64,000 nucleotides of DNA, from NCBI RefSeq assembly GCF_007752535.1, contig NZ_CP036426.1:2356001-2420000 (forward strand). Reading direction: 5' to 3'. Below the pieces are notes generated by a model. That model saw only the letters and a program-made list of their open reading frames with translations. It was not told where the DNA came from and did not search any database. This DNA is from Tautonia plasticadhaerens (lineage in GTDB: Bacteria; Planctomycetota; Planctomycetia; Isosphaerales; Isosphaeraceae). The position numbers and the translations under genes are program-made. Position 1 is the stretch's first letter, and every line of letters begins with the position of its first letter. Of this stretch, positions 33,525 through 49,565 are shown in pieces.

Positions 33525-35444
33525 TCAGACCGCCTGGACCTCCAGCTGGGACCCGGCCATGCGATCGATCCCGCGGTCGATCCGCTGGAGCGTCGAGAGC
33601 TGTCGGGTGTTGACGTTGAGCAGCCGGTCCTGCCCGCCCCCGTTGCGGAAGGCGGCGATGGCCGAGTACGCCTCCTTGCTGCCGAGCTCCAGGTTGGCGG
33701 CCGAGGCCTTCGCCTCGCCGCCCTGGTCGCCGAGCAGGTCGGGCCGGGCGATGCCCTGCTCGACGGCCCCCGCCACGGCGCCGGGCATCACGCCGGCCCC
33801 GGCCTCGACGGCCGACTCGACCGACTTGGCCGCGCGGGCCGCCTCGTTGGCGGCGATCCGGTCGGCCACCTCGTCGATCGACGATTGCAGGCTGATGAAC
33901 TCCGGCTCGGCCAGCGCGGGCAGCTCGGACACGGTGGAGGTGAACCCCTCCAGCATCGGGGTCCAGTTGAACTGGAAGCCCTGGGTGGGATCCCGGAGGA
34001 AGGCGACCAGCGCCGAGCCGAGGTTGTAGAGGTTGGTGCCGAGGTTCTGGATCCCGAAGCCGATCGCGTTGAAGGCGTCGAGGGCCAGCTCCCGCCAGTT
34101 CTCGAAGGCCCAGCCGGCGATGATGCCGATGTTGGTACCGAGCGTCTGGAACCACGCGCCGACGTTCAGGAGCCGCTCCTGCAGCTTGATGGCGGCCATC
34201 TCGAAGAGGTCGGGCAGGTTCCGGAAGGCGAAGCCGATGGTGTCGACGATCCCCGAGACGCTGATGCCCAGGCCCTGCACGGCCCCCTCGGAGCGGCCGA
34301 AGGCCTCGCCGACGCCGGTGGCCAGGTCGCCGAGCAGGGTGCTGCCGATCAGCAGGGCGGGGGCCAGGCCGGTGCCGACCTGGTCCTTGAGGATCGTCAT
34401 CCGGTTGCCGACCTGGGCGAGGGTGGCCCCGCTGGTGCCGGCGGTGATGTTGTAGCTCTTCTGGATCTGCTCCAGGGTGGCGAACTCGTGCGAGGACAGG
34501 CCGAGGTAGCGGTCGAGGGTGTCGACCTGGGCGGCGAGCTTCTGGATCTCGCCGGTCGCCTGGATCGAGTCGCGGCCGAGGACGGACGCGATGGCGACCT
34601 GCTGGCTCTGGGCGTCCAGGGTGTTGAGCGTCCCGAGGAAGGCCTGCAGCGCCCGGACGGGGGAGTCCTCGACCATCCGGGCGAACTGCCCGGCCTCGAC
34701 GCCGAGGACCTTCGCGAAGCCGGCCCGGGACTCGACGTTGTTGAGCCCCATGATCAGGCGTTGGAGCGAGGTCGCCCCCAGCTCGGCCTGGGTGCCGGTG
34801 TCGAGCAGGGCGCCGGCCAGGGCGACGGCCTCGTCGGCCCCGATCTTCGCCGCGGCGGCCGAGCCGCTGATCCGCTGGACGACGTTGAGGATGTCGCTGG
34901 AGGCCGAGACGCCCGAGTCGGCCACCTTGTCGATCGCCGAGCCGAGCTGCATCGCGCCCCGGGTGCTGCTCAGCTTGAAGACGCTGTTGACCTTGCCGAC
35001 CTGGTCGGCGATCTCCGAGGCGGGGATGTCGTCCATCGCGGTCGAGAGCATCGCGATGCCGCGGGTGTACTCGACCAGGTCGCCGGCGGCGATGCCGAGC
35101 TTGCCGCCGGTGATGGCGATGTCGAGCAGGTCCTCGACCGGCACGCCGGCCAGCTCGGTCGAGAGGCCGAACAGCTCCTGCTTGAGCCCCTCCAGCGCCG
35201 CCCCCTCCAGGTCGGTCGCCTTGGCCAGGCCGGCCATCTGCTTGCCGATCGAGAGGTGGGTCCGGAAGCTGGCCCCGGCGGCGGCGACGCCGCCCATCGC
35301 GGCCCCCATCGCGGCCAGGCCCCGGCCGCCGAAGGCCGTCGCCCCGGCGAAGGCGTTGATCGAGCCGCGCATGGCCCCGAGCCCCTTCTGCAGGGGCGCG
35401 GTGCTCATGGTGCCCATCACGCGGAGGTAGCCGACCGTCGCCAT
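33525..35444 (-). CDS. Phage tail tape measure protein
   Basis: This 639-aa protein sets tail length in siphophages and is packed in the tail tube. The N-terminal part carries the conserved TMP core (LSTELAGVPVEDLLDIAITG, DQVGKVNSVFKLSS, ALAGALLDTGTQAELGATSL, IASVLGRDSIQATGEIQKLA). Amphipathic and hydrophobic helices follow (residues about 300-450). It is short for a tape measure, predicting a tail of roughly 95 nm at about 0.15 nm per residue. It lies downstream of the G/GT chaperone genes as expected, although an HK97-gp10-like gene intervenes. Confidence 0.9.
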   Translation of the reverse strand: MATVGYLRVMGTMSTAPLQKGLGAMRGSINAFAGATAFGGRGLAAMGAAMGGVAAAGASFRTHLSIGKQMAGLAKATDLEGAALEGLKQELFGLSTELAGVPVEDLLDIAITGGKLGIAAGDLVEYTRGIAMLSTAMDDIPASEIADQVGKVNSVFKLSSTRGAMQLGSAIDKVADSGVSASSDILNVVQRISGSAAAAKIGADEAVALAGALLDTGTQAELGATSLQRLIMGLNNVESRAGFAKVLGVEAGQFARMVEDSPVRALQAFLGTLNTLDAQSQQVAIASVLGRDSIQATGEIQKLAAQVDTLDRYLGLSSHEFATLEQIQKSYNITAGTSGATLAQVGNRMTILKDQVGTGLAPALLIGSTLLGDLATGVGEAFGRSEGAVQGLGISVSGIVDTIGFAFRNLPDLFEMAAIKLQERLLNVGAWFQTLGTNIGIIAGWAFENWRELALDAFNAIGFGIQNLGTNLYNLGSALVAFLRDPTQGFQFNWTPMLEGFTSTVSELPALAEPEFISLQSSIDEVADRIAANEAARAAKSVESAVEAGAGVMPGAVAGAVEQGIARPDLLGDQGGEAKASAANLELGSKEAYSAIAAFRNGGGQDRLLNVNTRQLSTLQRIDRGIDRMAGSQLEVQAV

Positions 35445-35457
35445 GTCGCGAGGCTCC

Positions 35458-35991
35458 CTAGATGAAGCGGCCCGTCGTCGGGTCGCGGCGCGGGCCGCCC
35501 GAGCCGCCGGAAGGCTTGCGGACGCCGCGGGACGCCTCGCGCTCGATCGCGCCCCAGAGCTCGTCGATCATGGTCTGGCGGCCCTTGCCCTGGAGCCGCT
35601 CGAAGGCGCGGCGGACCCAGGGGTCCGGGGGGCGGTCGCGCGACCCGTATTCGATGATCGAGGGGTAGAAGTAGGTGGTCTTCGATCCATTGGCCTTCGG
35701 CGTCTTGGAGTCGCCGAAGGCGGCCTTGAAGGGGATCGAGGGGATGATCACGTGCAGGGCGATCTCCCCCCGCCGCTTCTTGCGGACGGCGCGGAGCTTG
35801 ACGTGGTCGCGCAGGAACCCGGTATCCTCGGGGGCAGACGCGATCACCTCGTCGAGGATGGGGCGCAGCCCCTCCCGGGTCGCCTTGCGGGCGAGCTTCC
35901 GCTGGATCTTGGGCTCCAGCTTCCGGAGCTTGCGGTCGATCGCCTTGTGGCCGGTGACGACCACGCGGACGGACCGACGTCGGCTGGCCAA
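35458..35991 (-). CDS. HK97-gp10-like phage protein
   Basis: A 177-aa protein matching the HK97 gp10 / tail-completion family pattern: GHKAIDRKLRKLEPKIQRKL, ASAPEDTGFLRDHVKLRAV and YGSRDRPPDPWVRRAF. The family normally helps join head and tail. Here it sits between the tail chaperone and tape-measure genes rather than before the tail tube, an unusual order. Confidence 0.8.
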   Translation of the reverse strand: MASRRRSVRVVVTGHKAIDRKLRKLEPKIQRKLARKATREGLRPILDEVIASAPEDTGFLRDHVKLRAVRKKRRGEIALHVIIPSIPFKAAFGDSKTPKANGSKTTYFYPSIIEYGSRDRPPDPWVRRAFERLQGKGRQTMIDELWGAIEREASRGVRKPSGGSGGPRRDPTTGRFI

Positions 35992-36330: not shown

Positions 36331-36708
36331 TCAGTTTCCCTCAAGCTCATCCACATCCGCTTGCGAGATGCGCGAGAGCTTCAGGGCCCGGGCGAAGATC
36401 GCGTCGACCACGGCCGAGTCCAGCCCGGCCAGGGCGGCGAGGTCCTCCGGGGTGAAGAGCGGCGTGCCGGCCGCGTCGCAGGCGGTGAGGACGACCAGCA
36501 GCTCGCGGGTGGCCTTGCGGTCCCGGGTCACGGCCAGCTCCCACTCGGCCCGCTCCCGGGCGGTGAGGGCCCGGACGTGGACGACCCCCAATCCCCGGGG
36601 CAGCTTCAGCGGCTCGGGGGCGGGCGGCTTCGCGGCGAGCAGCCGCTCGCGGGTCGCGGCGGGGGAAGGGGCGGGGACGGCGGCGGCGGCGACGGCGTCG
36701 GCACTCAT
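36331..36708 (-). CDS. Tail assembly chaperone G-like protein
   Basis: A 125-aa protein between the tail-tube and tape-measure genes. Text includes LTARERAEWELAVTRDRKAT and FTPEDLAALAGLDSAVVDAI with acidic C-terminus DVDELEGN. It ends exactly at the slippery site, stop TGA at 36331-36333. By analogy with lambda gpG it acts in tail assembly and is absent from the virion. Confidence 0.75.
   Translation of the reverse strand: MSADAVAAAAVPAPSPAATRERLLAAKPPAPEPLKLPRGLGVVHVRALTARERAEWELAVTRDRKATRELLVVLTACDAAGTPLFTPEDLAALAGLDSAVVDAIFARALKLSRISQADVDELEGN
36334..36340 (-). promoter_or_regulatory. Programmed -1 frameshift site GGGAAAC
   Basis: In the G frame the codons read G GGA AAC TGA, a textbook X XXY YYZ heptamer immediately before the stop. 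Shifting back one base gives GGG AAA CTG AGA, which continues in frame into the T-like extension. Lambda uses GGGAAAG at the same place. Confidence 0.8.
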
Positions 36709-36787: not shown

Positions 36788-37228
36788 TCAGGAGCTGGTG
36801 CCGGGGGTGAGGGTGATCGCGCCGGTGACCTTGACGGTCAGGGTCGCGGTCACGTTGTCCTCGTCGTCCCGGTTGACCTCGTCGACCTCGAAGCCGGTGA
36901 CGAAGCCGGAGAACTTGGCGATCGTCGCGGTGGTGTCCATGTCGTTGAGCGTGATCCGCCAGTAGATCGTGTTGCCGCTGGTGCGCAGGCCTTCGAGCGT
37001 GGCGTGGCTGGCGAGCTTGGGGTCGTAGGTGATCGCCAGCTCCAGCTCGCCGGCGTCGTATTTCTTGGAGCCGCGGAAGGTCTTGGCCCCGGCGGCCAGG
37101 TCGCTCGTCTCGACGGCCTCCCGCTCGGTGCCGGGCGGGGTGATCGAGATGAGCTGGGCGACGGCGGTGTAGGTGGTGTCGTCGGGGGAGGTCTCGAGCG
37201 TGGTCCCGGCGTGGGGGATGGCGGACAT
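36788..37228 (-). CDS. Major tail tube protein
   Basis: This 146-aa protein has the beta-barrel signature of lambda gpV-type tail-tube proteins: LETSPDDTTYTAVAQLISIT near the start, the central KKYDAGELELAITYDP, and C-terminal DEDNVTATLTVKVTGAITL. It sits between the tail-terminator gene and the G/GT genes as in lambda. It should form the hexameric rings of the tail. Confidence 0.85.
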   Translation of the reverse strand: MSAIPHAGTTLETSPDDTTYTAVAQLISITPPGTEREAVETSDLAAGAKTFRGSKKYDAGELELAITYDPKLASHATLEGLRTSGNTIYWRITLNDMDTTATIAKFSGFVTGFEVDEVNRDDEDNVTATLTVKVTGAITLTPGTSS

Positions 37229-37252: not shown

Positions 37253-37648
37253 TTAGCGGTGGAGGAAGGAGAAGTCGAGGCTGATGCGGCCGGACCAGGC
37301 GCCGCCGCCGCCGGCGGGCGGCTCGGGCAGGTCCTGCTCGTCGAGCTGCCGGGCCGAGAGGGACCCGCCCCGGTGGCCGTGCCAGAGGTCGGCCAGGGCG
37401 GCGGCCAGGGCCGCGGCGTCGGCCGGGTCGTCGGCCCAGCAGTCGAACTGGACCCGGGCCCGGCCCCAGTCGCCGGCGCCGTCCAGGTGCCGGCCCCGGG
37501 CGTGGCCGATGACGGTGAAGGTCACCGCGGGGGTGCTCGCCCCCTGGGGGATCCAGCCCGGGTAGACCCGGGAGGCGGCCCGGGCGGCGACCGCGGCGTC
37601 GGCGGCGGTCCGCGCGCGGACCGCCTCGATCAGCTCGGCGAGGGTCAC
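37253..37648 (-). CDS. DUF3168 tail terminator/completion protein
   Basis: A 131-aa protein of the DUF3168 (HK97 gp10/lambda gpU-like) family. Diagnostic text: ASRVYPGWIPQGASTPAVTF, RARVQFDCWADDPADAAALA and DEQDLPEPPAG. It caps the tail tube. Its closest relative in the window is the C-terminal domain of the giant gene immediately upstream, which shows the same WADDPADAAA and DEQDLPE text; the two are clear paralogues. Confidence 0.88.
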   Translation of the reverse strand: MTLAELIEAVRARTAADAAVAARAASRVYPGWIPQGASTPAVTFTVIGHARGRHLDGAGDWGRARVQFDCWADDPADAAALAAALADLWHGHRGGSLSARQLDEQDLPEPPAGGGGAWSGRISLDFSFLHR

Positions 37649-37649
37649 G

Positions 37650-40600
37650 TCAGCGGTCCGGCCGGGGGATGCGGTAGTGGATCGCGTAGTCGGCGACGAT
37701 CCGCTCGGTCCAGTCGCCGGAGCCGTCGGCGGGGGCCTCGGGCAGGTCCTGCTCGTCGACCTGGTAGGAGGAGTGCACCAGCACGCCCCCGGAGGCCGTG
37801 CCCCGGTAGCCGTGCCAGAGGTCGGAGAGGGCGTCGACGACGGCCGCGGCGTCGGCCGGGTCGTCGGCCCAGGCGTCGAACCGGACCCGGGCCCGGGCCG
37901 AGCCGTCGAAGCCGTCCTCGGCGAGGACCCGGCCCCGGGCGTTGGAGACGACCGTGAAGGTCAGGGCCGGCCGGGCCGCCACCCCCTGGGGGACCCAGTT
38001 GGGGTAGATCCGGGTGCCGACCAGGGCGGCCAGCGCGGCCGAGCCGGAGAGCCGCTCGAAGACGATCTGCCGCAGGTCGACCCGGGCGATCCAGGCCAGC
38101 CCGAGGGCGGCGGTCGCGTCGGCCGTCGTCGCCGAGAGCGAGAACGGGGCCGTGCCGGCCGGCGGGCTGGCGTCGAGCACCAGGGCGGCCGAGGCGTCCG
38201 CCGCGGCGGCGAGGATCGAGGCGGCGGCGGGGGCCGGGATCGCGGCGTCGAGGGCGAGGCTCGCGGTCGCGTCGCCGGCGGCGGCCAGCAGGGCGATCGT
38301 CGAGGCCGGCGGGGGCCCGGCGTCGAGGGCGAGGCTCGCCGTCGCGTCGCCGGCGGTCGCCGAGAGGGCCAGCCCGGCGGCGCCCGGGGCCGAGGCGTCG
38401 AGCGCGAGCGTGGCGGAGGCGTCGGCCGTCGAGGCCGAGAGGGCGAGCGCGGCCGGCGGGGGCGCCCCGGCGTCGAGCGCGAGCGTGGCGGAGGCGTCGG
38501 CGGCGGTCGCGGCGAGGGCGGCGGCCGACTCGCCGGGGGCCGCCGCGTCGAGGACCAGGGCGGCGGTCGCGTCGGCGGCGGTGGCCGAGAGGGCGGAGGC
38601 CGAGGGGGCCTCGGAGAGCTGGCGGACCTGCGCGTCGGCGTAGGCCAGCGCCGCCCCGAAGACGGCGTAGACCCGGCCGTCGAGCCGGGCGAAGCCGGAG
38701 GAGGCGACCGGGGCCCCGACCCGGGGCGTGGCCCCGGCCAGCGAGGTCCCGGCGTCGATCGTCGCCGACGGGCCCGAGGGGGACCCGGCCACGAAGGCCT
38801 GCAGCGCCGTCCCGTCCCGGACCAGGCCGATCGTGACCGGGGCCCCGCCGGCCGGGAGGGTGGCCGAGCTGGTCGCCGAGGCGAGGGTCCCCCCGGACGG
38901 CCGGTAGCTCCCGACCACGTGGCCCGAACTGTCGACCGCCAGCCGGCAGGCGACGGCGCCCGAGGCGTCGGCCTCCTCGTAGATCACCGCCGGGTCGGTC
39001 GCCGGCAGGGCGTCGAGCCGGACCTTGGCCAGCAGCGTGAAGGCGGATCGGTCGCCGACCAGGCCGCCGGGGGTGCCGTGGGAGAGCTGGTCGTCGGTGC
39101 CGTCGAAGTCGACGTAGGGGGTGCCGGGGCCCGACCGCCAGGCCGGCCGGGCGGGGACGGAGGCCTGCTCGAAGGCCAGGCCGCCGACCCGGTCGTCCCA
39201 GGAGGAGACCGGGTCGAGGTCGTCGGCCGGGCCCTCGACGACGCCGTGGGCCCCGCCCGGGGCGCCGACGGCCGTCATCGCGCGGCCGTTGCCGGTGGCG
39301 TCGAGCCGGTCGCCGGAGGCCTCGTCCAGCTCGTGGAAGAGGACCAGGCCGGACTTCTGGCCCGAGGTCATGCCGCCGAAGGTGAGCCCGGCCCCGGCGT
39401 TGAAGAGGCCCGTCACGTCGGACTGGGTCAGGGCCCGGTTGCCCCAGAGGCCGACCTGGTCGATCCGGCCGTCGAGCAGCTGGACCCGGGAGGCGGAGCC
39501 GCCGAAGTTGGAGCCGTAGTCGAGGTGCGTCGGCGTGATCGTGCCGCCGAAGGAGCCGGTGGCGTCGGTCCCCTTGACGCCGTCGACGTAGATCGAGAGC
39601 GTGTTGCCGCTGCGGACCCCGACGACGTGGTGCCACTGGCCGGCGGAGAGGGCGGAGCCGACCGCGGTGGAGAACGCCGCCCCGTCGGCCCCGACGATGA
39701 AGTCGACCACGTCGTCCGAGCCGACCCCGAGGAAGAGCGGGATCCGGGACGAGGACGCCGTCGAGCGGTGGCAGACGATCCCCCGGCTGGCCCCCGTCGC
39801 GTCGAGGTAGACCCAGGCCTGGACGCTGTAGCTGGTCCCCAGCACGCCCATCAGCGAGCCGGACCGGGTCAGGTACTGGGTCGAGCCGTCGAGCTCGACG
39901 GCCCCCCGGGCGTTGACCCCGTCGCCGGCGTCGAGCCAGAGGACGCGGGCCGGGGCGGTGTCGAAGCCGATCGGCCCGCCGCCGGCGGCCCAGAGGGCGG
40001 CGGTGGCGTCGGCGGCGGTCGCCGAGAGGGCGATCGCGGTGCCGGTCGGGGCCCCGGCGTCGAGGGCGAGCGAGGCGGTGGCGTCCGCCGCCGTCGCCGA
40101 GAGGGCGATCGCGGTGCCGGTCGGGGCCCCGGCGTCGAGGGCGAGCGAGGCGGTGGCGTCGGCGGCGGTCGCCGAGAGGGCGATCGCCGAGCTGCCCGGC
40201 AGCCCCGCGTCGAGGGCGAGGCTCGCGGAGGCGTCGCCGGCCGTCGCGGCGAGGGCGGCGGCCGAGCCCGGCGGCGCCCCCGCGTCGAGGGCGAGCGAGG
40301 CGGAGGCGTCGGCGGCGGTCGCCGAGAGGGCGGCGGCGGCCGGGGACGGCGACGACGTCCCCAGCACCTCGATCCCGGCGATCGAATACTTCTGGCCGCT
40401 CGGGCTCGACAATCCGAGCGTCTTGGACCCGGCCGCCCCCGCGTCCGGCCAGCGGGCGGCGTAGACGGTGTAGCGCGAGGCGTCCCGGAAGTAGACCGCC
40501 TCGTACCCGTTGCCGGCGCTCGGGGCGGTGCCGTTGATCGTCCGCCAGGTGCGGGAGGAGCCGTCCCCGGCGTTCCAGTCGTTGTTGATCGCGACGAGCG

Positions 40601-41024
40601 CCGAGTTGGCGCCGGTCGTCGTCAGCGAGAGGCTCGGTGCCCCGGACGAGACGTTGGCCTTGGCGGAGTTGCCGAGCCCGTCGGAGCCGCGATACTGGAG
40701 GACCGACCCGCCGAAGTAGAGGCCCGAGGACAGGGAGCCCGTGCGCGTGAACGTGACGGCGAACGAGGCGGACCCCGAGGCGACCGCCGTCCAGATCGCG
40801 ACCTTGCCGTAGTCGTTGCCCTGGACGACCTGCCGGCTGGTCCAGGTCAGGCCGCCGCCGCTGGGCGTGATCGTGGGCTCCTGGAAGCCCGTGTTGTAGG
40901 TCTCGACGGCCGAGACCGCGACCAGCACGTCCCCGGCCTGGACGGTGATCGCGGCCGTCGACTTGGGCGAGGTGGCGGAGTCCCACGCCGTCTCATATTC
41001 GCCGATGAAGTTGGGTGCGGCCAC
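37650..41024 (-). CDS. Giant LamG/repeat protein fused to a DUF3168 tail-terminator domain
   Basis: This 1124-aa chain has an unusual architecture. Residues 1-225 are a beta-domain (VQAGDVLVAVSAVETYNTGF). About 226-350 is a 25-residue repeat array (SATAADATASLALDAGAPTG). About 370-540 is a LamG/concanavalin-type domain (YSVQAWVYLDATGASRGIVC, GQWHHVVGVRSGNTLSIYVD), and a second LamG-like domain follows at about 620-800 (RSAFTLLAKVRLDALPATDP). A second 25-residue array lies at about 805-980. The C-terminus (about 983-1124) is a DUF3168 domain (GTRIYPNWVPQGVAARPALT, RFDAWADDPADAAAVVDAL). No signal peptide. It lies 1 bp from the free DUF3168 gene. The sugar-binding-type modules suggest a decoration projecting from the tail or neck. 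Function unproven. Confidence 0.85.
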   Translation of the reverse strand: MAAPNFIGEYETAWDSATSPKSTAAITVQAGDVLVAVSAVETYNTGFQEPTITPSGGGLTWTSRQVVQGNDYGKVAIWTAVASGSASFAVTFTRTGSLSSGLYFGGSVLQYRGSDGLGNSAKANVSSGAPSLSLTTTGANSALVAINNDWNAGDGSSRTWRTINGTAPSAGNGYEAVYFRDASRYTVYAARWPDAGAAGSKTLGLSSPSGQKYSIAGIEVLGTSSPSPAAAALSATAADASASLALDAGAPPGSAAALAATAGDASASLALDAGLPGSSAIALSATAADATASLALDAGAPTGTAIALSATAADATASLALDAGAPTGTAIALSATAADATAALWAAGGGPIGFDTAPARVLWLDAGDGVNARGAVELDGSTQYLTRSGSLMGVLGTSYSVQAWVYLDATGASRGIVCHRSTASSSRIPLFLGVGSDDVVDFIVGADGAAFSTAVGSALSAGQWHHVVGVRSGNTLSIYVDGVKGTDATGSFGGTITPTHLDYGSNFGGSASRVQLLDGRIDQVGLWGNRALTQSDVTGLFNAGAGLTFGGMTSGQKSGLVLFHELDEASGDRLDATGNGRAMTAVGAPGGAHGVVEGPADDLDPVSSWDDRVGGLAFEQASVPARPAWRSGPGTPYVDFDGTDDQLSHGTPGGLVGDRSAFTLLAKVRLDALPATDPAVIYEEADASGAVACRLAVDSSGHVVGSYRPSGGTLASATSSATLPAGGAPVTIGLVRDGTALQAFVAGSPSGPSATIDAGTSLAGATPRVGAPVASSGFARLDGRVYAVFGAALAYADAQVRQLSEAPSASALSATAADATAALVLDAAAPGESAAALAATAADASATLALDAGAPPPAALALSASTADASATLALDASAPGAAGLALSATAGDATASLALDAGPPPASTIALLAAAGDATASLALDAAIPAPAAASILAAAADASAALVLDASPPAGTAPFSLSATTADATAALGLAWIARVDLRQIVFERLSGSAALAALVGTRIYPNWVPQGVAARPALTFTVVSNARGRVLAEDGFDGSARARVRFDAWADDPADAAAVVDALSDLWHGYRGTASGGVLVHSSYQVDEQDLPEAPADGSGDWTERIVADYAIHYRIPRPDR
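38095..38610 (-). repeat. 75-bp coding repeats, second array
   Basis: About seven imperfect 25-codon units (ALSATAxDAxAxLxLDAxxP) link the second LamG-like domain to the DUF3168 domain. Units differ mostly at the Pro/Gly linker. Confidence 0.8.
39985..40345 (-). repeat. 75-bp coding repeats, first array
   Basis: About five 25-codon units; two adjacent units encode the identical ALSATAADATASLALDAGAP followed by TGTAI and are nearly identical in DNA, suggesting recent duplication by slippage or recombination. Confidence 0.85.
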
Positions 41025-41036
41025 GGGGGCTCCGCG

Positions 41037-41351
41037 TCAGGGGGCGACGAGCTCGGCGAAGCCGGCGACGGGCGCGGCGGCGGACCCGCCCGACACCGTC
41101 ACCCGGCACCGCTCGCCGGGGGCGAAGCGGGGGAGCAGGTGGTCGATGGTGGCGCCGGCGTAGGTCGTGCTCGACCGGCCGGCGGCGGACCACCGCTCCA
41201 GGGTGACGGCCACCTCCGCGTCGAACCGGACGCGGAGGGTGGGGCGGGCGGCCGTGCCGACGCCCGGCCGGGCCACGGCCGAGCGGGCGAGCCCGGCCAC
41301 CGGGCCGGAGAGCAGCAGCAGCCGCCGGGGGGCCCGGGGGGGCAGGCTCAT
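41037..41351 (-). CDS. Phage protein, unknown (104 aa)
   Basis: Beta-rich small protein (RVRFDAEVAVTLERWSAAG, RCRVTVSGGSAAAPVAGFAE). Its ATG overlaps the end of the preceding gene by 4 bp. It lies between the head-tail connector genes and the giant LamG gene. Confidence 0.6.
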   Translation of the reverse strand: MSLPPRAPRRLLLLSGPVAGLARSAVARPGVGTAARPTLRVRFDAEVAVTLERWSAAGRSSTTYAGATIDHLLPRFAPGERCRVTVSGGSAAAPVAGFAELVAP

Positions 41352-41668
41352 TGGCGGATCTGGGCGCAGAGCTGCTTGATCGCCGCCGCCGCCGTGTTGA
41401 CCGCGTAGTCGATCTCGACGAACGCGGCCAGGGTGACGGACGCGCTCACCGCGCCCCCGGGGGCGTCCAGGAAGCGGAGCAGCAGCGCATTGGTCGCGTG
41501 GTCGGAGGCGACGGCGGGCGAGGAGGCGGCGTCCCTGGCCTCGCGCATCGCGTCCCGGATCGACTCCAGCTCGGCGATGTCCTGGCCGAGCCGGCGCAGC
41601 ACGTCGAGCAGGTCGCGCCCCATCGTGGTCTGCACGGCCGAGTCGTCGACGTGGAAGTGGTTGGGCAC
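41348..41668 (-). CDS. Phage protein, unknown (106 aa)
   Basis: Helical protein (TTMGRDLLDVLRRLGQDIAE, SIRDAMREARDAA), with a second helix near the end (AVNTAAAAIKQLCAQIRQ). Translationally coupled to the next gene. No family recognised. Confidence 0.6.
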   Translation of the reverse strand: MPNHFHVDDSAVQTTMGRDLLDVLRRLGQDIAELESIRDAMREARDAASSPAVASDHATNALLLRFLDAPGGAVSASVTLAAFVEIDYAVNTAAAAIKQLCAQIRQ

Positions 41669-41713
41669 GGTCGGGGCTCCGGGGGGGGGTGTCCGGCGTG
41701 GATGGGAGGGGGG

Positions 41714-42010
41714 TCAGGCGTCGAAGACGCCGGCCTTGGTGGCGTAGTCGAGGGCCTCCTCGACGGCCCCGACGTTGGGGGCCTCCTCGGGCGTGCCGGC
41801 GTGGACGACCAGGCCGAGGTCCCGGGCGACCTGCTCGGGGGACCGGCCGGCCTTGCGCTCGGCGACGACCCGGGCCACGGTGACCGTCGGGTCGGCGGCC
41901 AGGCGGATGCCCTCGCCGAGCCGGGGGACGTAGGTGAGCCGGGGGAAGCCGTCGAGCCGGACGGACCCGGGCGTGTGGAGGACCTTGAATCCGGCGGAGT
42001 TGGCGGGCAT
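41714..42010 (-). CDS. Phage protein, unknown (98 aa)
   Basis: Starts MPANSAGFKVLHTPG. The C-terminal half (RSPEQVARDLGLVVHAGTPE then VGAVEEALDYA) is helical and wHTH-like. Located in the connector region; no function assigned. Confidence 0.6.
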   Translation of the reverse strand: MPANSAGFKVLHTPGSVRLDGFPRLTYVPRLGEGIRLAADPTVTVARVVAERKAGRSPEQVARDLGLVVHAGTPEEAPNVGAVEEALDYATKAGVFDA

Positions 42011-42066
42011 GGCGGTCGGGTCTCCCTGCGGTGGCCTCGGGCCAATCGGGTGTGAGGGGGGGCGGG

Positions 42067-42465
42067 TCAGGCGTTCCCGTCGGTGAGCGTGCCGGAGGTG
42101 AGGGACACCGCCCCGTTGGCGGTGATCGTCGAGTCGAAGCTGGCCTCGCCGGAGCCGACGCCGGCGGTGAGCTGGATCCGGTCGGAGTCGGTGCTGTTGG
42201 TGATCCGGACGTAGTCGGGGGTGCCGGTGGCGTCGGCCGAGCTGTCGGCGGTGGCCGAGATCGTCAGCGTGCCGTCGGAGTTGTTGGTGATCGTGACGGC
42301 GGTGAGCGTGGCCAGCAGGGTGCCCAGCGAGGTCGTGGCCGAGGCGGCCGGGGGCGAGCCGCCCGAGGCGTAGACCTTGAGCAGGCCGGTGTTGGCGCCG
42401 CCGGCGTCGACGATCGTCTTGATGGCGCCGACCCGCGCGCTGCGGACGGTGACGGTGAACTGCAT
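42067..42465 (-). CDS. Beta-rich phage protein, possible decoration (132 aa)
   Basis: Ser/Thr/Gly-rich beta text (LATLTAVTITNNSDGTLTIS, DSTITANGAVSLTSGTL). Such proteins in the head-tail region may be decoration or fibre proteins. A similar style appears in the 168-aa gene at 47080. Confidence 0.6.
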   Translation of the reverse strand: MQFTVTVRSARVGAIKTIVDAGGANTGLLKVYASGGSPPAASATTSLGTLLATLTAVTITNNSDGTLTISATADSSADATGTPDYVRITNSTDSDRIQLTAGVGSGEASFDSTITANGAVSLTSGTLTDGNA

Positions 42466-42498: not shown

Positions 42499-42822
42499 TC
42501 AGACCGACTCGCGGCAGGTGAGCATGAGCTGGCGGGTCCGGCCGCCGACGTCGGTGTCCCGGACCTCCAGGATCTCCAGCGTCCGGCCCCCCCAGTCGAG
42601 GCGGTCGGCCGGGGTGACGGCGGCGACGGCCCGCATCAGGACCCGGTGGCTGGCCAGGGCGTGGACCTGCCGGGCGTGCTCCAGCTCCCGGCCGGCCAGG
42701 GGGCGGACCTCGGCCCAGCAGGAGGCCAGGTCGGTCCAGGCCTCGACCGGCTGGCCGAAGCTCCCCTGCGTGGTCGTCGCCCGGCGGATCGCGACGCGGT
42801 GGCGGAGTCGTCCGGCGCGCAT
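42499..42822 (-). CDS. Head closure / head-tail adaptor protein
   Basis: This 107-aa protein matches the phage head-tail adaptor family (SPP1 gp16-like): AGRLRHRVAIRRATTTQGSF, TDLASCWAEVRPLAGREL and DRLDWGGRTLEILEVRDTD. Its ATG overlaps the previous stop (TGATG). It should plug the connector after packaging. Confidence 0.85.
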   Translation of the reverse strand: MRAGRLRHRVAIRRATTTQGSFGQPVEAWTDLASCWAEVRPLAGRELEHARQVHALASHRVLMRAVAAVTPADRLDWGGRTLEILEVRDTDVGGRTRQLMLTCRESV

Positions 42823-43475
42823 CAGGCGTAGTGCCCCCAGCTCTCGGCGGCCAGCAGGGCCCCGACGCCGTAGGGCAGGTCGACCGGGCCGTTGCCGATC
42901 AGCGGGTCGATCGCCGCCTCGCGGTGCTCGTACCAGTGGGAGACGAGCAGGAGCACGGCCAGCTTGAGGGTCTGCGGGACGTCGGCCGCGTCGCCGTAGC
43001 CGGCCGTGAAGCGGATCGTCACCGCCTCGGGCCGGGACCGGGTCGCCGGCCAGCTCGTGCCGTAGGCGGGCACGACCAGGCCGGGCGAGCCGGCGACGAC
43101 CTGGTAGCCGGAGGGGTCGAGCGTCTGCTCCTCGCCGGCGGCGTCGACGTAGGTGATCGAGGAGACCGAGGCCAGCGGGGCGAGCGGCACCGTGAGCGTG
43201 CCGTAGTACGACCAGGACCGCTCCCACGACCCGGGCCGCTGGGTGCAGGCCCGGGGGAAGCCGTCGAGCGTCAGGTCCCAGGCCTGGGAGACCAGGGCCC
43301 GGGCCAGTCGGGCCTCGACGAGGCGGCGGGCGGCGACGACCAGGGCGGCGATGAGCGTGTCGTCGTCGTCGACCTCGACGCGCAGGTGGGCCTTGGCCTC
43401 GGCGGTCGTCACCGGCTCCTCGGCCGGGGGGGTGGCCGGGGTGAGGCGGCCGTCGGGCTGGAGCATCGGGGTCAC
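42822..43475 (-). CDS. Head-tail connector (gp6-like) protein
   Basis: This 217-aa protein has the gp6/phiE125-gp8 connector pattern: PVTTAEAKAHLRVEVDDDDT, LIAALVVAARRLVEARLARA and C-terminal KLAVLLLVSHWYEHREA. The family forms the ring beneath the portal. It overlaps the gene downstream by one base and the one upstream by 4. Confidence 0.88.
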   Translation of the reverse strand: MTPMLQPDGRLTPATPPAEEPVTTAEAKAHLRVEVDDDDTLIAALVVAARRLVEARLARALVSQAWDLTLDGFPRACTQRPGSWERSWSYYGTLTVPLAPLASVSSITYVDAAGEEQTLDPSGYQVVAGSPGLVVPAYGTSWPATRSRPEAVTIRFTAGYGDAADVPQTLKLAVLLLVSHWYEHREAAIDPLIGNGPVDLPYGVGALLAAESWGHYA

Positions 43476-43693
43476 TTGCCCTTCCGCTTCGGGGTCGCGG
43501 GCCGGGGGGCCTCGGTCGTCTCGGGCTCGGGGCCGGGGTCGGTCTCTGCCGACTCGGGAGTGGCGTCGGCGTCGATCGGGACGGCATAGCCGCCGGCGAC
43601 CAGGGCACGGGCGAAGGCCTCGGCCAGGTCGTGCTCGCCGGGCTGGAGCACGCCGTCGGGCCCGGCGGCCAGGGAGTGGAGTCGGACGCGCAT
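43472..43693 (-). CDS. Small phage protein between capsid and connector (73 aa)
   Basis: ATG 43693 gives MRVRLHSLAAGPDGVLQPG then EHDLAEAFARALVAGGYAV and an acidic, Pro/Thr-rich, lysine-ended tail. A common small gene at this location; function unknown. Confidence 0.55.
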   Translation of the reverse strand: MRVRLHSLAAGPDGVLQPGEHDLAEAFARALVAGGYAVPIDADATPESAETDPGPEPETTEAPRPATPKRKGK

Positions 43694-43775
43694 CGGTTCC
43701 TCGGTGGGGGGCCGGGGCGCCAGGGTGCGACCCTGTGCGTTCCTCGCCGGTGGTGCGACCTCGGCCGAGGAGACA

Positions 43776-43800
43776 ACGCCCCGATCGGGTGGAGGGGCGT
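43776..43800. terminator. Hairpin after the major capsid gene
   Basis: ACGCCCC and GGGGCGT can pair across an 11-nt loop, 43 bp beyond the capsid stop. It may attenuate read-through or stabilise the capsid mRNA, as often seen after major capsid genes. Confidence 0.5.
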
Positions 43801-43842
43801 CGGGGCCGGGGCCAGCATCGCCCCGCCCCGCCACCCCCCGGC

Positions 43843-45126
43843 TCAGGACGCGGCGAGCTTCATCCGCGCGAAGGCGGATTCGAGCACCGGGGCGCCGTCG
43901 ACCCAGATCCGGCCGATGAAGCCGACCTCGTTGGTGGCGGCGTACAGCTCGGTCAGGCGCTGGATCGCGAAGGCGTTGACCTCGGCGATGTGGTAGTAGC
44001 TGAAGTTGCCGAACAGGCCGACGTAGAGGCCGGCGGTGAAGGTGTTCGGCGCGTGCTCGGACTGGTAGACGGGGAAGCGGAGCAGCTGGTCGGGCTGGCC
44101 GGCCTGGAGCCCCGGCTGCCAGAGGTACTGGTTGTCCGAGTCCTTGAGCTTGCGGATGGCCTTCACCGCGTCGCGGTGGAAGATCCAGCCGACCTTGTCG
44201 CCGACGAGGTAGCCGGGGTTCACGGCGTAGACGACGTCGAAGAGCGTGTCGGCGACGATCGCCGTGGTCGTGTTCGAGCCGGCGACGTCCCGGCCGGTCG
44301 AGATGCCCGAGGCGCTGGCGGTGAAGACGCCCAGCGGCTTCGACGAGCCGTCGGCGGTGAGGAAGGCCTTTTCCTGGGTCAGGCCGAACTTGTACCCCAG
44401 CTCCTGGCGGACGATCGACTCGGCGTCGCTCGACAGGGCCAGGGTCCGCAGCGACACCTTGGAGAGCTTGGAGAGCAGGTAGGGCTCCAGGTCCCGGCGG
44501 CCGAAGGCCATCGTGGTGTCCTCGGTGACCGCGGCCACCTCGGTCGTCCAGCTGGCGTCGGCCATGTGGGTCGGCAGCGTCCGGATGCCGAGCTTCTTGG
44601 CGTCGTTGACGGTGTGGACGGTGGCCAGCCGGCGCATGAAGACCATGTCGTCGACGACCTTGACCAGCTGCTGGGTCACCCGGGTCGGGGTGATCAGGTA
44701 GCCGCCCTTGGCGTCGGTGCCGATGATGGTGTCGCGGACCTCGGCCATCAGCCCGGCGTGCCGCTCCTCGCCGGCCCGCAGCGACTGGCGGACCTCGCCG
44801 GTGCGGAGGAAGTGGGCGAAGGCGGCCCGCTCCTCGGCCTCGCGGGCCTCGGCCCGCTGCTCGCCGCGGCGGTGCTCGCGGCGCTCCGAATCGATGCCCT
44901 CGGCCTGGCGCTCGACGGGCCGGTCGAGGTCGGACTCGACGGCCTCCAGCTTCTCCATCCGGTCGACCTGGGAACGCATGGCGTCGACGTCGGCCATGAC
45001 GCGGTCGAACTGCTCGGTCTCCTCGGCGGAGAGGTCGCGGCCCTCGGCGTCGGCGGCGGCCTGGAGGTCGCGGGCCTGCTTGACCAGGCCCGCCCGCTCC
45101 TCGCGAAGCTCAACGGAAGTCGGCAT
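43843..45126 (-). CDS. HK97-fold major capsid protein
   Basis: This 427-aa protein is the HK97-type major capsid subunit. Residues 1-110 are a charged coiled coil, the delta/scaffold domain removed by the protease (KQARDLQAAADAEGRDLSAE, HRRGEQRAEAREAEERAAFA). The mature fold then begins, with GTDAKGGYLITPTRVTQQLV, ASWTTEVAAVTEDTTMAFGR, the spine helix RQELGYKFGLTQEKAFLTAD, GSSKPLGVFTA and IGRIWVDGAPVLESAFARMK. It directly follows the prohead protease gene. Confidence 0.95.
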   Translation of the reverse strand: MPTSVELREERAGLVKQARDLQAAADAEGRDLSAEETEQFDRVMADVDAMRSQVDRMEKLEAVESDLDRPVERQAEGIDSERREHRRGEQRAEAREAEERAAFAHFLRTGEVRQSLRAGEERHAGLMAEVRDTIIGTDAKGGYLITPTRVTQQLVKVVDDMVFMRRLATVHTVNDAKKLGIRTLPTHMADASWTTEVAAVTEDTTMAFGRRDLEPYLLSKLSKVSLRTLALSSDAESIVRQELGYKFGLTQEKAFLTADGSSKPLGVFTASASGISTGRDVAGSNTTTAIVADTLFDVVYAVNPGYLVGDKVGWIFHRDAVKAIRKLKDSDNQYLWQPGLQAGQPDQLLRFPVYQSEHAPNTFTAGLYVGLFGNFSYYHIAEVNAFAIQRLTELYAATNEVGFIGRIWVDGAPVLESAFARMKLAAS

Positions 45127-45168: not shown

Positions 45169-45774
45169 TCAGGAATCGGCCTCGGCCAGCCGCGTCAGTC
45201 GGGCTGCGCGGGCGCGCAGGGGCGTTCCGGCGGGCTGGCTCCGGCGGAACTCGTCGAGGCTCCGCAGCGCGGCGGAGGTGTCCTCGTAGGCGGGGTAGGT
45301 GACGATCGAGACGTCGTCGATGGCGGCCTCGGTCACCGTGCGGATCTCCACCCCGTCGGCGGGGTCGCGCTCCCAGTCGTCGCGCCGCTTGTAGAAGCGG
45401 AAGGAGACGCCGCCCATGTCGCCCCGGGCGATCGACACCAGGTAGTCCCGCGACCAGGTCGTGTCGGGGGGGTCGATCTCGAACCGCAGCTCGTCGGGGT
45501 CGTCGAAGAGCCGGAGCGTGCCGGCCACGTTGCGGCCCATGACGAGGTTCTTGTCGTGGTTGATCAGGGCCCGGACGTCGGCCCCGGATTGCAGGCTCCG
45601 CGTGAACGCCCCCGGGGCGAACCGCTCCCGGAACCGGCCGCGGTCGCTGCGCAGCTCCCTCGAGAGCGACCCGTAGCGGATCGCCCGGCCGACGATCATC
45701 GGCCGGCCGTCGCGCTCGGCCATGCGGACCTCGGCGTCGGGCAGGACGAGGCAGCGGGTCTCGACGTCGCTCAT
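45169..45774 (-). CDS. Prohead protease (HK97 family)
   Basis: This 201-aa serine protease of the HK97 prohead family matures the capsid. Family features: VGRAIRYGSLSRELRSDRGR, FAPGAFTRSL, ALINHDKN (catalytic His) and MGGVSFRF (catalytic Ser), followed by AAIDDVSIVTYPAYEDTSAA. ATG 45774 overlaps the portal stop by 4 bp. Confidence 0.92.
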   Translation of the reverse strand: MSDVETRCLVLPDAEVRMAERDGRPMIVGRAIRYGSLSRELRSDRGRFRERFAPGAFTRSLQSGADVRALINHDKNLVMGRNVAGTLRLFDDPDELRFEIDPPDTTWSRDYLVSIARGDMGGVSFRFYKRRDDWERDPADGVEIRTVTEAAIDDVSIVTYPAYEDTSAALRSLDEFRRSQPAGTPLRARAARLTRLAEADS

Positions 45775-47078
45775 GGCCGGGCGGGCTCCGTTGCGGGCGA
45801 GCCCGGCCCGCCGCCGGGGAAGGCGATGCCGGCCTTCTCGATCGGGACGTTCTGGGCCTGGGTGAGGTGCTGTTCGCCGCCCTTGACCGGGTTGAGGTTC
45901 TCGGCCCGGCGGCACTCGTTGATCGAGCGCATCCCGGTGCGGATGGCGATCTCGTAGGACTGGTAGCGCTTCAGCAGGTCGCCGCGCAGCAGCGCGTCGA
46001 CGTCGTGCTCGACGAAGTAGCCGCCCTGCCACTCGGACCGGGTGAACAGCTTGAGGTTGATCTCCTGCTCGATCGCCTCCAGCCAGCCGGTCAGCGCCGT
46101 GTTCAGGTAGTCGAGGTTGGAGGCCTCGATGTTGGCCAGGTGGGCCTCGGAGAGGTCGCCGTACTTGTTGGGGGGGACCCGCCAGGGGCGGGCGACGTCG
46201 AGCGACTGGAACTTGCGGCCCTCGACGAGCTGCGACTGCTGGGGGTTGGAGCTGGTGCCCTTCCAGGTCGCGCCCTGCTCCAGCACGGCCGGGCGGTGCC
46301 GCTTGCCGGGGCCGCGGTGGAGGTCGTCCCAGCCGGTGCGGAGGTTCGCGATGGCCTGCGGGTTGAGCTTCTGCGGCGTCTCGATCACGCCGCCGGGGTC
46401 GGCCCCGTTGGCGAAGTAGTCGGCCGCGTAGGACTCCATCGCGATCCCCAGCCCCAGGCCCTGGCGGAGCAGGGCCACGAAGTTCAGGCCGCGGATGCCG
46501 TCGAGCCCCAGGCCGGCCAGGTGGAGCACGTTCTCGGGCCGGAGGTGCCGGGTGCCGCCGCGGACCCCCTGGACCTCGTAGCGGAGCACGCCGTCGGGGT
46601 CGGCCAGCTCGACCTCGACGCCGTCGAGCAGCCGGACGGGGCGGGTCGTCTCCGGGTCGAGCAGGTGCAGCGAGTAGGGGGTGCCGCGGCCGGTCCGGCG
46701 GATCTCGTTGTAGCCGTTGCCCCAGAGCAGGGCGTGCAGGACCCAGGACTGCCGCCAGCGGATCGGCGTCGTCTCCGGGCGGTCCGGGCCGGCGGGCGAC
46801 CGGGAGAGCAGCTCGTGATTGGGGTGCCGGCGGTCGCGGACGCGGCCCTCGTCGCCCTCGCCCCGGAAGACGTCGATCGGCATGCAGGCCAGGTCGGTGG
46901 CCAGGGTGTTGGCCGTGGCCAGCAGCGTCGGGAACGCCAGCGCCGTCTCCTCGGTGACGGCGACGCCGGCGGAGCCGGTGCCGGGCGGCCACCAGAGCTC
47001 CTCGCCGGCGACGGCGCGGGACTCCGGGGCCGTCGCCGAGGGGCGGGCCTTCAGGATGGAGGGCAGTCGCTTCGGCAC
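45771..47078 (-). CDS. Portal protein (HK97 family)
   Basis: This 435-aa protein would form the dodecameric portal through which DNA enters the head. Recognisable text: LALFPTLLATANTLATDLAC-like start (TLATDLACMPIDVFR), SWVLHALLWGNGYNEIRRTG, GIRGLNFVALLRQGLGLGIA, YAADYFANGADPGGVIETP and EIAIRTGMRSINECRRAENL. The frame is open further upstream, but GTG 47078, just after the previous stop and behind GGGG, is the best start. Coupled to the protease gene. Confidence 0.92.
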   Translation of the reverse strand: MPKRLPSILKARPSATAPESRAVAGEELWWPPGTGSAGVAVTEETALAFPTLLATANTLATDLACMPIDVFRGEGDEGRVRDRRHPNHELLSRSPAGPDRPETTPIRWRQSWVLHALLWGNGYNEIRRTGRGTPYSLHLLDPETTRPVRLLDGVEVELADPDGVLRYEVQGVRGGTRHLRPENVLHLAGLGLDGIRGLNFVALLRQGLGLGIAMESYAADYFANGADPGGVIETPQKLNPQAIANLRTGWDDLHRGPGKRHRPAVLEQGATWKGTSSNPQQSQLVEGRKFQSLDVARPWRVPPNKYGDLSEAHLANIEASNLDYLNTALTGWLEAIEQEINLKLFTRSEWQGGYFVEHDVDALLRGDLLKRYQSYEIAIRTGMRSINECRRAENLNPVKGGEQHLTQAQNVPIEKAGIAFPGGGPGSPATEPARP

Positions 47079-47589: not shown

Positions 47590-47967
47590 TTACTCGACCT
47601 CGGCCAGGATGGTGTTGCCGCAGGCGTTGCAGATGTCGACGCGACGGACACCGTCGGCCACGTAGCCAGGGGAGAAGTTCCGGCTGCCGCAGATCGGGCA
47701 GCAGGAGGGCGGACGCTTGGCGACGAGGGCGGCCTTCGGTGCCGGCCGATCCAGGACGACGGCCATTTCGAATGGAGGATCGCCGGCCAGGCAGACGTGG
47801 GACCCGAAGATCATCATGAGCCGCCAGAGCTGGATTCGGGTCCAGCCGTCGGCGTCGATCTGCGGCACGCACCGGAACTCGTAGTGCTCGCAGTAGAGAC
47901 GGATCCCGTCGGGCTTCAGCCGGACCCTCACCTCTTCGTTCAGGTTGATCGTGATGGAGTCGCTCAC
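47590..47967 (-). CDS. Zinc-ribbon phage protein (125 aa, GTG start)
   Basis: GTG 47967 overlaps the terminase stop (GTGA). N-terminal half: SITINLNEEVRVRLKPDGIR, beta-rich. C-terminal half carries a zinc ribbon, CCPICGSRNFSPGYVADG then DICNACGN, with two CxxC pairs. It may contact DNA or the terminase. Confidence 0.65.
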   Translation of the reverse strand: MSDSITINLNEEVRVRLKPDGIRLYCEHYEFRCVPQIDADGWTRIQLWRLMMIFGSHVCLAGDPPFEMAVVLDRPAPKAALVAKRPPSCCPICGSRNFSPGYVADGVRRVDICNACGNTILAEVE

Positions 47968-49565
47968 AGGACCAGGGGCCCCCTCTCCTCGTAGACCGAA
48001 CGCTCGTCGCCGCCCTCGCCCATCCAGGCCCCGAGGGCCATCACCAGGGCGACCACGCCGTCGATCCGCTCGGTGGACTTGCCCTTGCTGGGGCGGATCA
48101 GCTCCTCGCGCTGGTCGATCGCGGCGTTGGCGACGCACCAGCGGAGCACCGGCTGGCCGTCGTGCCGGAGGTTGCCGTCGATGATCAGGCCCTCCAACCG
48201 CTTGGCCGGGGCGTTCATCCAGAAATGGGTCTGCTTGAACGGCAGCATCGTCAGCCCGGCGCCGTCGCGGTCCAGCCGGGTGGCGACGTAGCCGGCGTGG
48301 GCCGGGTCGAAGGCGAGGGCCTGGATCGGGAAGCGTTGGGCGATCGCCTCGATCTCCGAGGCCACCCGCTCGTGGTCGAGCGTCTCGGCGTCGGTGAAGG
48401 TGACGTGCCCCTCGCGCTTCCAGGCGGGATACGGCACCCGGTCTCGCCGCTCGCGCTCGATCGCCGATTCGCCGGGGACCCAGAAGAAGGGGAGCACGAC
48501 GATCGGGTCGCCCTCGGCCTCGCCCGGGAAGACGAGCACCAGGGCGGTGAGGTCGTGGATCGTGCTCATGTCCAGGCCCGCGTAGCAGGCCCGGCCCTCG
48601 AAGGCCGACCAGTCGACCTCGGCCGTGCAGCGGTCCCAGGCGTCGAGCGACAGCCAGCGCTCGGCCTGCTCGGTCCACTGGTTCAGGTAGAGCTGGCGGA
48701 ACGTGTTCTCGAAGCGGGGCCGCTCGCGGGCCTTGTGGAACTCCTCGCGGATGAAGTCGAGCGAGCAGAAGTCGCCCAGCGCGGGCATCGCCTTGTGCCA
48801 GGTGGCCTCGTCGGTCCAGTCGTCGCCGGCCCCGGCGGCGTGGATCACCGGCAGGTAGGTCGGGTCCTCGCGGACCCCGTCGCGGACGTCGACGGCATAC
48901 TGCCACTCGTCGAAGCAGAGCGAGTGCCGGTCCCAGCCGGCCGTCGTGATCATCCAGGTCAGCGGGTCGAGCCTCGCGGCGAAGCCGGTGGTGAGGACGT
49001 TGACCAGCTCCTCGTCGACGACGTGGTACTCGTCGATCAGGACGGCGGTCGGGCCGAGGCCGTGCTTGGACTTCGGGACCGAGGAGAGCACCTCCAGCGT
49101 CGAGTTGCCGGCGGGGTACTCGATCCGCCTGTAGCCGTCGTAGATGACGAACCGGGAGTCGAGGGCCGGGTCGTTGCGGATCATCTCGCTCATGGCGGAG
49201 AAGATCAGCGCGGCCTGCTTGGTGTCGCCGCTGGCGGTGTAGACCCGCTGGTTCGCCTTGCCCTGGCCCTCGCCGGTGAGCAGGAACAGCCCGCCGCCGG
49301 CCACCACCTCGGTCTTGCCCTGCTTGCGGGGCAGGCCCCAGAAGGTCTTGCGGTACTGGCGTCGGCCGTCGGGGCGTCGGGTGCCGAAGAGCCTCCGCAG
49401 CGGGTCGGCCTGCCAGGGGCGGAGGTCGAAGGGCTCGCCCGAGAAGTCGCCGGTGTGGGTGAGCTGGTTGAAGAAGCGGACCGCCCGCTCGCCGTGGTCA
49501 GCCGACGACGCCGAGCAGGTCGCCCCACCTGTCCGGGCCGGTCGCGTCCGTCGGGGTCGCGGCAT
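47964..49565 (-). CDS. terL: Terminase large subunit
   Basis: This 533-aa ATPase/nuclease packages phage DNA. ATPase motifs: Walker A GLPRKQGKT (about 77-85), Walker B AVLIDEYH (about 174-181) and coupling motif TTAGWDRHS. Nuclease part: YAGLDMSTIHDLTALVLVF (first acidic residue), ALAFDPAHAG (second) and a C-terminal DGVVALVMALGAW. The ATG at 49565 overlaps the small-subunit gene by 68 bp. There is no later start before the conserved RAVRFFNQLTHTGDF text, so this is kept although long for an overlap. Confidence 0.93.
   Translation of the reverse strand: MPRPRRTRPARTGGATCSASSADHGERAVRFFNQLTHTGDFSGEPFDLRPWQADPLRRLFGTRRPDGRRQYRKTFWGLPRKQGKTEVVAGGGLFLLTGEGQGKANQRVYTASGDTKQAALIFSAMSEMIRNDPALDSRFVIYDGYRRIEYPAGNSTLEVLSSVPKSKHGLGPTAVLIDEYHVVDEELVNVLTTGFAARLDPLTWMITTAGWDRHSLCFDEWQYAVDVRDGVREDPTYLPVIHAAGAGDDWTDEATWHKAMPALGDFCSLDFIREEFHKARERPRFENTFRQLYLNQWTEQAERWLSLDAWDRCTAEVDWSAFEGRACYAGLDMSTIHDLTALVLVFPGEAEGDPIVVLPFFWVPGESAIERERRDRVPYPAWKREGHVTFTDAETLDHERVASEIEAIAQRFPIQALAFDPAHAGYVATRLDRDGAGLTMLPFKQTHFWMNAPAKRLEGLIIDGNLRHDGQPVLRWCVANAAIDQREELIRPSKGKSTERIDGVVALVMALGAWMGEGGDERSVYEERGPLVL

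Follow-up and report, generated by a model that had tools for sequence, protein, structure and literature searches.

Organization of the fused gene and its neighbour

We analysed a 64,000-nucleotide stretch of the Tautonia plasticadhaerens chromosome (NZ_CP036426.1, positions 2,356,001 to 2,420,000; hereafter the window), in which the minus-strand open reading frame (ORF) 37650–41024 encodes a protein, designated P0002, that joins a long N-terminal arm to a tail-terminator domain of the DUF3168 type (D1). The next gene encodes a free domain of the same type (D2). The features of the two genes, from the N-terminus of P0002 to the end of D2, are as follows.

37650..41024, minus strand: fused protein P0002, arm and terminator domain D1; 1124 amino acids, GTG start
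40335..41024, minus strand: β-rich N-terminal head, residues 1–230; mostly low-confidence structure prediction
39978..40334, minus strand: repeat block 1, five units of 25 residues, about residues 231–349; from repeat analysis
38607..39962, minus strand: LamG (Laminin_G_3) domain pair, residues 355–806; from Pfam, with a stand-alone chromosomal gene version in the host genus
38070..38597, minus strand: repeat block 2, seven units of 25 residues, about residues 810–985, running straight into D1
37650..38072, minus strand: D1, DUF3168/tail-terminator domain, residues 985–1124; from the predicted fold and identity to D2
37253..37648, minus strand: D2, free DUF3168 gene (P0005), 131 amino acids, GTG start, one base after the stop of the fusion

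Third-position GC content, measured in 15 blocks of 75 codons, was 0.96–1.0 throughout, and the block spanning the junction was no exception; thus, the ORF reads as a single continuous gene. A frame error near residue 980, which the sequence-only reading that preceded this analysis had named as a case that would refute it, was made unlikely by this even codon periodicity and by the recurrence of the fusion elsewhere, and the ORF is confirmed as a genuine gene fusion. Read-through or a +1 shift joining D1 to D2 was also considered and set aside: D2 is indeed positioned in the +1 frame past the stop, but the last codon was judged to be non-slippery.

The arm ahead of D1 comprises 984 residues, and the order from the N- to the C-terminus is the β-rich head, five repeats, the LamG pair, seven repeats, and D1. 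Laminin_G_3 (PF13385) matched two stretches of P0002 (E 5.5e-23, 82.2 bits against a curated cut-off of 27.6), and the best PDB matches of the pair include laminin LG, neurexin, and pentraxin chains; by its profile match, the pair is assigned to the LamG/concanavalin A-like lectin superfamily. The 12 repeat units are spaced at 25 residues, once at 26, and are up to 96% identical to each other at the DNA level. Each unit was modelled with moderate confidence as two short strands, without a long helix. Judging from this near-identity in the single available allele, rapid change of arm length driven by the repeats is plausible. The presence of LamG-type domains, 25-residue repeats, and a terminator domain in one ORF, as first noticed from the sequence, was therefore borne out by Pfam, by the repeat spacing, and by the predicted fold of D1.

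D1 was identified as a terminator by its identity to D2 (57% across 127 residues) and a confidently predicted fold. By sequence profile, it gave a weak match to the PHROG tail-terminator family phrog_123 (E 0.025), which speaks neither for nor against the assignment. D2 itself matched PF11367 (Tail_completion_gp17), which we take to be the former DUF3168, at E 1.6e-9. The model of D1, built on 28 related domains, reached a mean predicted local distance difference test (pLDDT) score of 94.4 and starts with a helix immediately behind the repeats. Its top PDB matches were chain 4A of a gene transfer agent particle, phage phiXa, and T5 p142; in total, 33 matches were obtained at E≤0.001, lambda gpU among them, with T4 gp15 (1.2e-3) and R4C (2e-3) just behind. 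By their titles, the 33 entries are phage, phage-related, or tailocin tail, neck, cap, connector, or collar structures, except 2gjv and 4acv, both of which are counted among the terminators in a passage of the T5 paper (PMC11784142). Structure prediction of the parts, proposed earlier as a check, thus returned a terminator fold for D1 as a confident prediction.

On the phylogenetic tree, D1 and D2 formed one group (support 98/84), in agreement with the tandem duplication in this lineage that the sequence-only reading had proposed. The direction it had assumed, with the free gene as the original and the fused copy as the derivative, was not upheld. The branch of D1 is shorter than that of D2 (0.29 vs 0.57, on a tree in which most of the deeper forks are weak); D1 outscored D2 against 10 of 11 same-family terminator domains and 17 of 26 overall; and the C-terminal end, kept in D1 and in most of the six sisters compared, is missing from D2. 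By these comparisons the fused D1 is the better conserved copy. Its shorter branch and higher scores suggest that the resident terminator was the one that became fused and that the free D2 is the derived copy; D2 may then be a later duplicate.

Armed and doubled terminators in related prophages

Genomes were searched with a DUF3168 alignment at three taxonomic levels. Within the same order, 12 of 45 genomes matched at E≤0.001; within the same class, 46 of 397 genomes matched in a search that scored at most nine candidates per genome and is hence non-exhaustive; at the level of the phylum, 18 of 392 genomes matched at E≤1e-5. The 67 places found in the class correspond to 65 loci, including the window, all of which were taken in; 13 further loci from the phylum brought the set to 78, and six more places from the phylum were left out.

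An N-terminal arm was judged real in seven of the 78 loci, all of them among the 65 of the same class and distributed over six genomes. The build had earlier been regarded as having no known counterpart; the six other armed terminators in prophages of the same class show that it is not unique. The arms measure 984 residues in the window, 258 in L070, 271 in L071, 417 in L072, 510 in L094, 559 in L095, and 654 in L096. The repeats ahead of DUF3168 have a period of 25 in the window; in L071, L072, L094, L095, and L096 the period is 20, and the weaker repeats of the L070 arm have periods of 10, 42, and then 20. The arm of L072 carries a LamG head (E 4e-8), as in the window. All six other fusions are located downstream of a head-completion gene, and the next gene encodes the tube protein in five of them. 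The L070 fusion was also found in the IMG/VR contig L186 with 100% identity over all 405 residues, which is possibly not an independent sample.

The combined arginine and proline content was 0.04–0.11 in the seven arms (0.09 in the window), compared with 0.19–0.42 in the other rows that have a frame of at least 55 residues before the domain. The N-terminal extensions of L104, L155, L171, and L173–L181 were read as spurious high-GC frames after inspection of their sequences, and those of L044, L051, L106, and L185 were rejected on composition together with the gene model, or on composition alone. The repeated frames of 339 amino acids from the phylum search were likewise discarded as spurious. 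L048, with a possible short leader before the domain, is an exception among the extensions inspected.

The terminator domains of these fusions differ in how well they match PF11367: the L070 fusion gave E 1.5e-15, L071 was just under the cut-off, and L072, L095, and L096 had no match at 0.01. The fused DUF3168 is the only one found in each of the loci L070, L071, and L072; the genome of L071 (G030) has another at a separate locus, L048. In L071 and L072, no in-frame ATG, GTG, or TTG was found within 80 codons upstream of the domain. Because the armed protein is the sole DUF3168 found in these two loci and has no nearby internal start, it is probably their working terminator.

Two DUF3168 domains were found in four of the 78 loci (the window, L094, L095, and L096), and all four are armed. 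Fisher's exact test for this association gave 2.5e-5, or 2.7e-4 when L095 and L096, which come from one genome, were counted once; the test is rough, since the rows share ancestry and some of the locus stretches span only 3–7 kb. The doubled loci also have the longest arms (510–984 residues vs 258–417 in the three single ones). In L094–L096, both domains belong to one chain with the arm joined to both, the full open frame of L094 containing two domains behind its 510-residue repeat arm, whereas in the window they are encoded by adjacent genes one base apart, a spacing that would suit coupled translation. We tentatively suggest, as a possibility that we favour less than its negation, that doubling is a device for spacing the arms: the ring would be built as a trimer of pairs, each with one armed and one unarmed unit in alternation, and would bear three arms rather than six. 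The unarmed unit would be supplied by the adjacent gene in the window, by the second domain of the chain in L094–L096, and perhaps by an internal start in L070.

Additions at the C-terminal side of the terminator domain were observed in L097:8303-9901, L170:5504-6211, L138:6332-6961, and L139:3984-4706. The addition in L097 is collagen-like; those in L138, L139, and L170 are short segments, and the L170 segment matches PHROGs of unknown function. L097 was rejected as an N-terminal fusion owing to a low coding score in the gene model and was retained solely as the C-terminal collagen-like case.

Genomic context of the fusion

By its gene order, the window looks like it harbours an intact long-tailed prophage. 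Gene calls were based on a codon-usage gene model and family searches. In the direction of transcription on the minus strand, the genes are arranged as terminase, portal, protease, capsid, adaptor, head completion, four small genes, the fusion, D2, tube, chaperone, a Neck1-type gene, tape measure, and the gene of a 294-amino-acid protein. Thus, D1 is located between the head-completion and tube genes, separated from the latter by D2.

47964..49565, minus strand: terminase large subunit
45771..47078, minus strand: portal protein
45169..45774, minus strand: prohead protease
43843..45126, minus strand: major capsid protein
42822..43466, minus strand: head-tail adaptor
42499..42822, minus strand: head-completion/head closure Hc1 protein; modelled start within a longer ORF
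41037..42465, minus strand: four small genes from head completion to the fusion (104, 106, 98, and 132 amino acids; the last is phrog_3758)
36788..37228, minus strand: major tail (tube) protein
36331..36708, minus strand: tail assembly chaperone
35458..35964, minus strand: tail completion/Neck1 protein
33525..35444, minus strand: tape measure protein, 639 amino acids
32639..33523, minus strand: 294-amino-acid protein behind the tape measure; relatives in many sister prophages, largest gene at the tail-tip end
28366..29415, plus strand: integrase, on one side of the prophage

Two further apparent fusions, the head-completion ORF 42499–43818 and the protease ORF 45169–46992, were rejected, as their arginine- and proline-rich extensions were judged to be spurious open frames of high-GC DNA. 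In addition, a second recombinase with PHROG integrase and DNA invertase matches (55106–55789, plus strand) lies inside or beside the prophage, a sigma-factor-like gene (52735–53352; phrog_351, E 9e-5) lies upstream of the terminase region, and a small protein whose start is rich in cysteine and glycine (31828–32259) is encoded behind the tail-tip gene.

Past the gene of the 294-amino-acid protein, the gene model contains only genes of 119, 143, and 87 amino acids over 4.5 kb of the same strand, and a usual tail-tip fibre, judged by gene size alone, is not evident in the operon. Larger proteins are encoded behind the corresponding gene in the unarmed sisters L101 (590 amino acids), L105 (574), L107 (706), and L073 (428).

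Residues 1–180 of the L070 fusion matched a free protein of 197 amino acids in the sister prophage L042 (E 1.5e-83), which is encoded two genes ahead of the terminator, in the slot between head completion and terminator. The L071 arm, in turn, matched a free protein of 181 amino acids in L046 (E 3.4e-8). The interval from the adaptor or head-completion gene to DUF3168 was seen to be variable in L042–L051 and L073. It encodes a GDSL esterase with Ig/fn3-type domains in L048 (where the adaptor was called and head completion was not) and a collagen-like protein in L046; matches below the curated cut-off were obtained to LamG in L043 (E 0.004) and to a beta-helix in L073 (E 1e-4), and the 868-amino-acid protein directly ahead of the terminator in L051 had no Pfam match. 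The pairs of free and fused arms, taken together with these contents, make the slot look like a site for host-contact proteins, of which fusion to the terminator is one state, and the slot is likely a receptor-binding locus of these prophages.

The LamG pair has relatives on the host chromosome. A stand-alone gene with two LamG domains is present at the host chromosomal place L006, which is syntenic with L039, L040, and L041 in three other genomes of the genus, and a second host copy is present at L007. These genes were located at L006:10036-11397, L007:10338-11753, L039:7352-8740, L040:8115-9326, and L041:7777-9219. Between species, the matched neighbouring genes are about 62–92% identical, and the LamG gene of L006, at about 42–45% identity to its counterparts, has diverged far more. 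The phage pair grouped with the host L006 copy (60% identity, support 100/100), which points to an exchange between phage and host that could have run in either direction.

Interpretation and comparison with known systems

The duplication, the LamG domains, the repeats, and an anchor of terminator fold make a neck appendage the most economical reading, and we consider it probable that P0002 is the tail terminator of a long-tailed temperate phage, equipped with an arm that serves adsorption from its anchor at the neck. D1 would be a unit of the terminator ring, which closes the tail tube at the head-tail joint. From there the arm, composed of beta-repeat linkers, the LamG pair, and the β-rich head, would extend from the neck to host-surface glycans, to which binding is predicted, and adsorption, or its first reversible grip, would proceed from the neck instead of the tail tip. 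Presumably, adjacent genes for the arm protein and the terminator merged in an ancestor, and D2, as the later duplicate, could fill the armless positions of a mixed ring.

Several observations weigh against this interpretation. The system is known from genes alone, and D1 had no PF11367 match at E≤1. The β-rich head was mostly modelled with low confidence and had no Pfam or PHROGs match at E≤1, and LamG folds are not necessarily sugar-binding. An unarmed D1 may arise in the window from an internal start, a GTG in frame 36 codons ahead of the domain that has no purine-rich stretch; an internal start may likewise be used in L070, where such a stretch precedes an ATG located 41 codons ahead of the domain. 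In L094, the gene behind the fusion was not recognised as a tube protein, and a 347-amino-acid protein follows the counterpart of the 294-amino-acid gene in this armed locus too, which leaves the lack of a tail-tip fibre in armed phages as only a tendency. Searches among phages, viral contigs, and genomes revealed no full-length relative of the window fusion. The tblastn search of 50,697 phage records with the fusion returned only three cyanophage matches, to the LamG part, and D1 alone had no match there at E≤0.01; scans with the fusion gave two loci in IMG/VR and nine among the genome contigs, all by the LamG part, and no IMG/VR locus was matched by the fusion of L071 or L095, these contig scans using exact short peptides with a reach limited to close relatives. 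Finally, gene position by itself may be misleading: in T5, the gene of p143 is flanked by those for head completion and the terminator, and its product is nevertheless proposed to be placed at the tail tip in the section of the T5 paper that describes it (PMC11784142).

The last point also bears on the alternative that D1 is no longer a terminator, with D2 alone capping the tail and the fused protein acting as an adhesin plugged in elsewhere, for example at the tail tip, as p143 suggests for a slot-encoded protein. The terminator fold is described in the same part of that paper as related to the tail tube domain fold (PMC11784142), and D2 is an intact free copy with a PF11367 match. However, D1 is better conserved than D2 and has retained the C-terminal end, no DUF3168 other than that of the armed protein was found in the loci L071 and L072, and the arm is joined to both copies in L094–L096; we therefore regard this alternative as unlikely. 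Slightly less likely still is an arm that is structural rather than adhesive, serving as a neck clamp or decoration or as a stabiliser of the head-tail joint. In phage 812, separate proteins decorate the stopper and the terminator and are thought, in the portion of the report covering them, to reinforce the neck interfaces (PMC12886913), and the neck fibres of TP901-1 are given as non-essential in the relevant passage (PMC4493119). Such a role fits poorly with the exchange of arm modules with free slot proteins and with sister slots that contain a GDSL-type enzyme and a collagen-like protein, as expected for host-contact proteins. It is highly improbable that the fusion stems from misassembly or from a frame that stayed open by chance: long spurious frames do occur in this high-GC DNA, and many apparent extensions in the relatives are of that type, but codon periodicity is constant across all 1124 codons, the arms are low in arginine and proline (0.04–0.11 vs 0.19–0.42 in the other frames of at least 55 residues before the domain), and six further armed ORFs, as well as the identical L070 fusion in a viral contig, were found.

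Most known neck appendages come from dairy phages and T4, and the usual view of them is as accessories with anchor proteins of their own. If the adsorption-arm interpretation is true, the ring that ends the tail tube itself carries host-contact arms, and has come to do so more than once with different arm modules. The receptor-binding proteins of such prophages would then be expected between the head-completion and terminator genes, and not just behind the tape measure. The doubled terminators would offer a direct structural test of a six-fold ring that bears fewer, longer arms.

In predicted fold and gene position, D1 resembles the siphophage terminators (lambda gpU, SPP1 gp17, T5 p142, and R4C gp18; PF11367, phrog_123, and phrog_347), a class characterised by a hexameric ring on the tail tube and by polytails or unjoined tails upon its loss. 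Those among the best matches are about 120–170 residues long, whereas the D1 of the window has a 984-residue arm and a second copy behind it. According to a passage of the T5 paper, some terminators are larger and have extra domains, for example ones that contact the sheath, and the PVC16 terminator has a duplicated fold in one chain, comparable to L094–L096; a lectin arm such as that of the window fusion is not mentioned for PVC16 in that passage (PMC11784142).

In its proposed function, P0002 comes closest to the neck passage structure of the lactococcal 936 and P335 phages, described in the sections concerned as neck arms with carbohydrate-binding modules whose distal domains are swapped between phages; low-affinity binding to host cells was observed for the carbohydrate-binding module of one of these proteins (PMC6669499, PMC10684548). 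In those accounts, the neck passage structure is formed by a protein of its own, which combines a BppU-like ring domain with a coiled-coil shaft and for which an 18-mer collar is proposed (PMC6669499, PMC10684548), unlike the terminator anchor and short beta repeats of the window; that of TP901-1 is reported, in the passage on it, to be associated with the portal vertex and encoded behind the baseplate genes (PMC4493119). P0002 is not assigned to this class, because its recognisable ring domain is the C-terminal terminator and its N-terminal head, mostly of low model confidence, has no family match that would mark a BppU-like anchor, and because its repeats were modelled, with moderate confidence, as short strands and not as a helical coiled-coil shaft; a neck location is deduced for it from the terminator domain only.

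The terminator decoration proteins of Staphylococcus phage 812 decorate the ring from outside, as is proposed for the P0002 arm, but, according to the relevant portion of the report, they are proteins in their own right that have a small globular domain and belong to a contractile phage (PMC12886913), whereas the P0002 arm is fused to the terminator. Alteromonas phage R7M has hairy fibres at the head-tail interface, for which ORF28, a gene of the head-tail module, is proposed; the passage does not report a fusion to the terminator, unlike in the window (PMC8265664). Among the matches listed in the open-access literature, screened by title and the start of the abstract, a terminator fused to a lectin arm was not described. 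Compared with these systems, the armed terminator is best read as a recurrent architecture akin to the known neck collar or whisker, in which the terminator would serve as the anchor of the arm.

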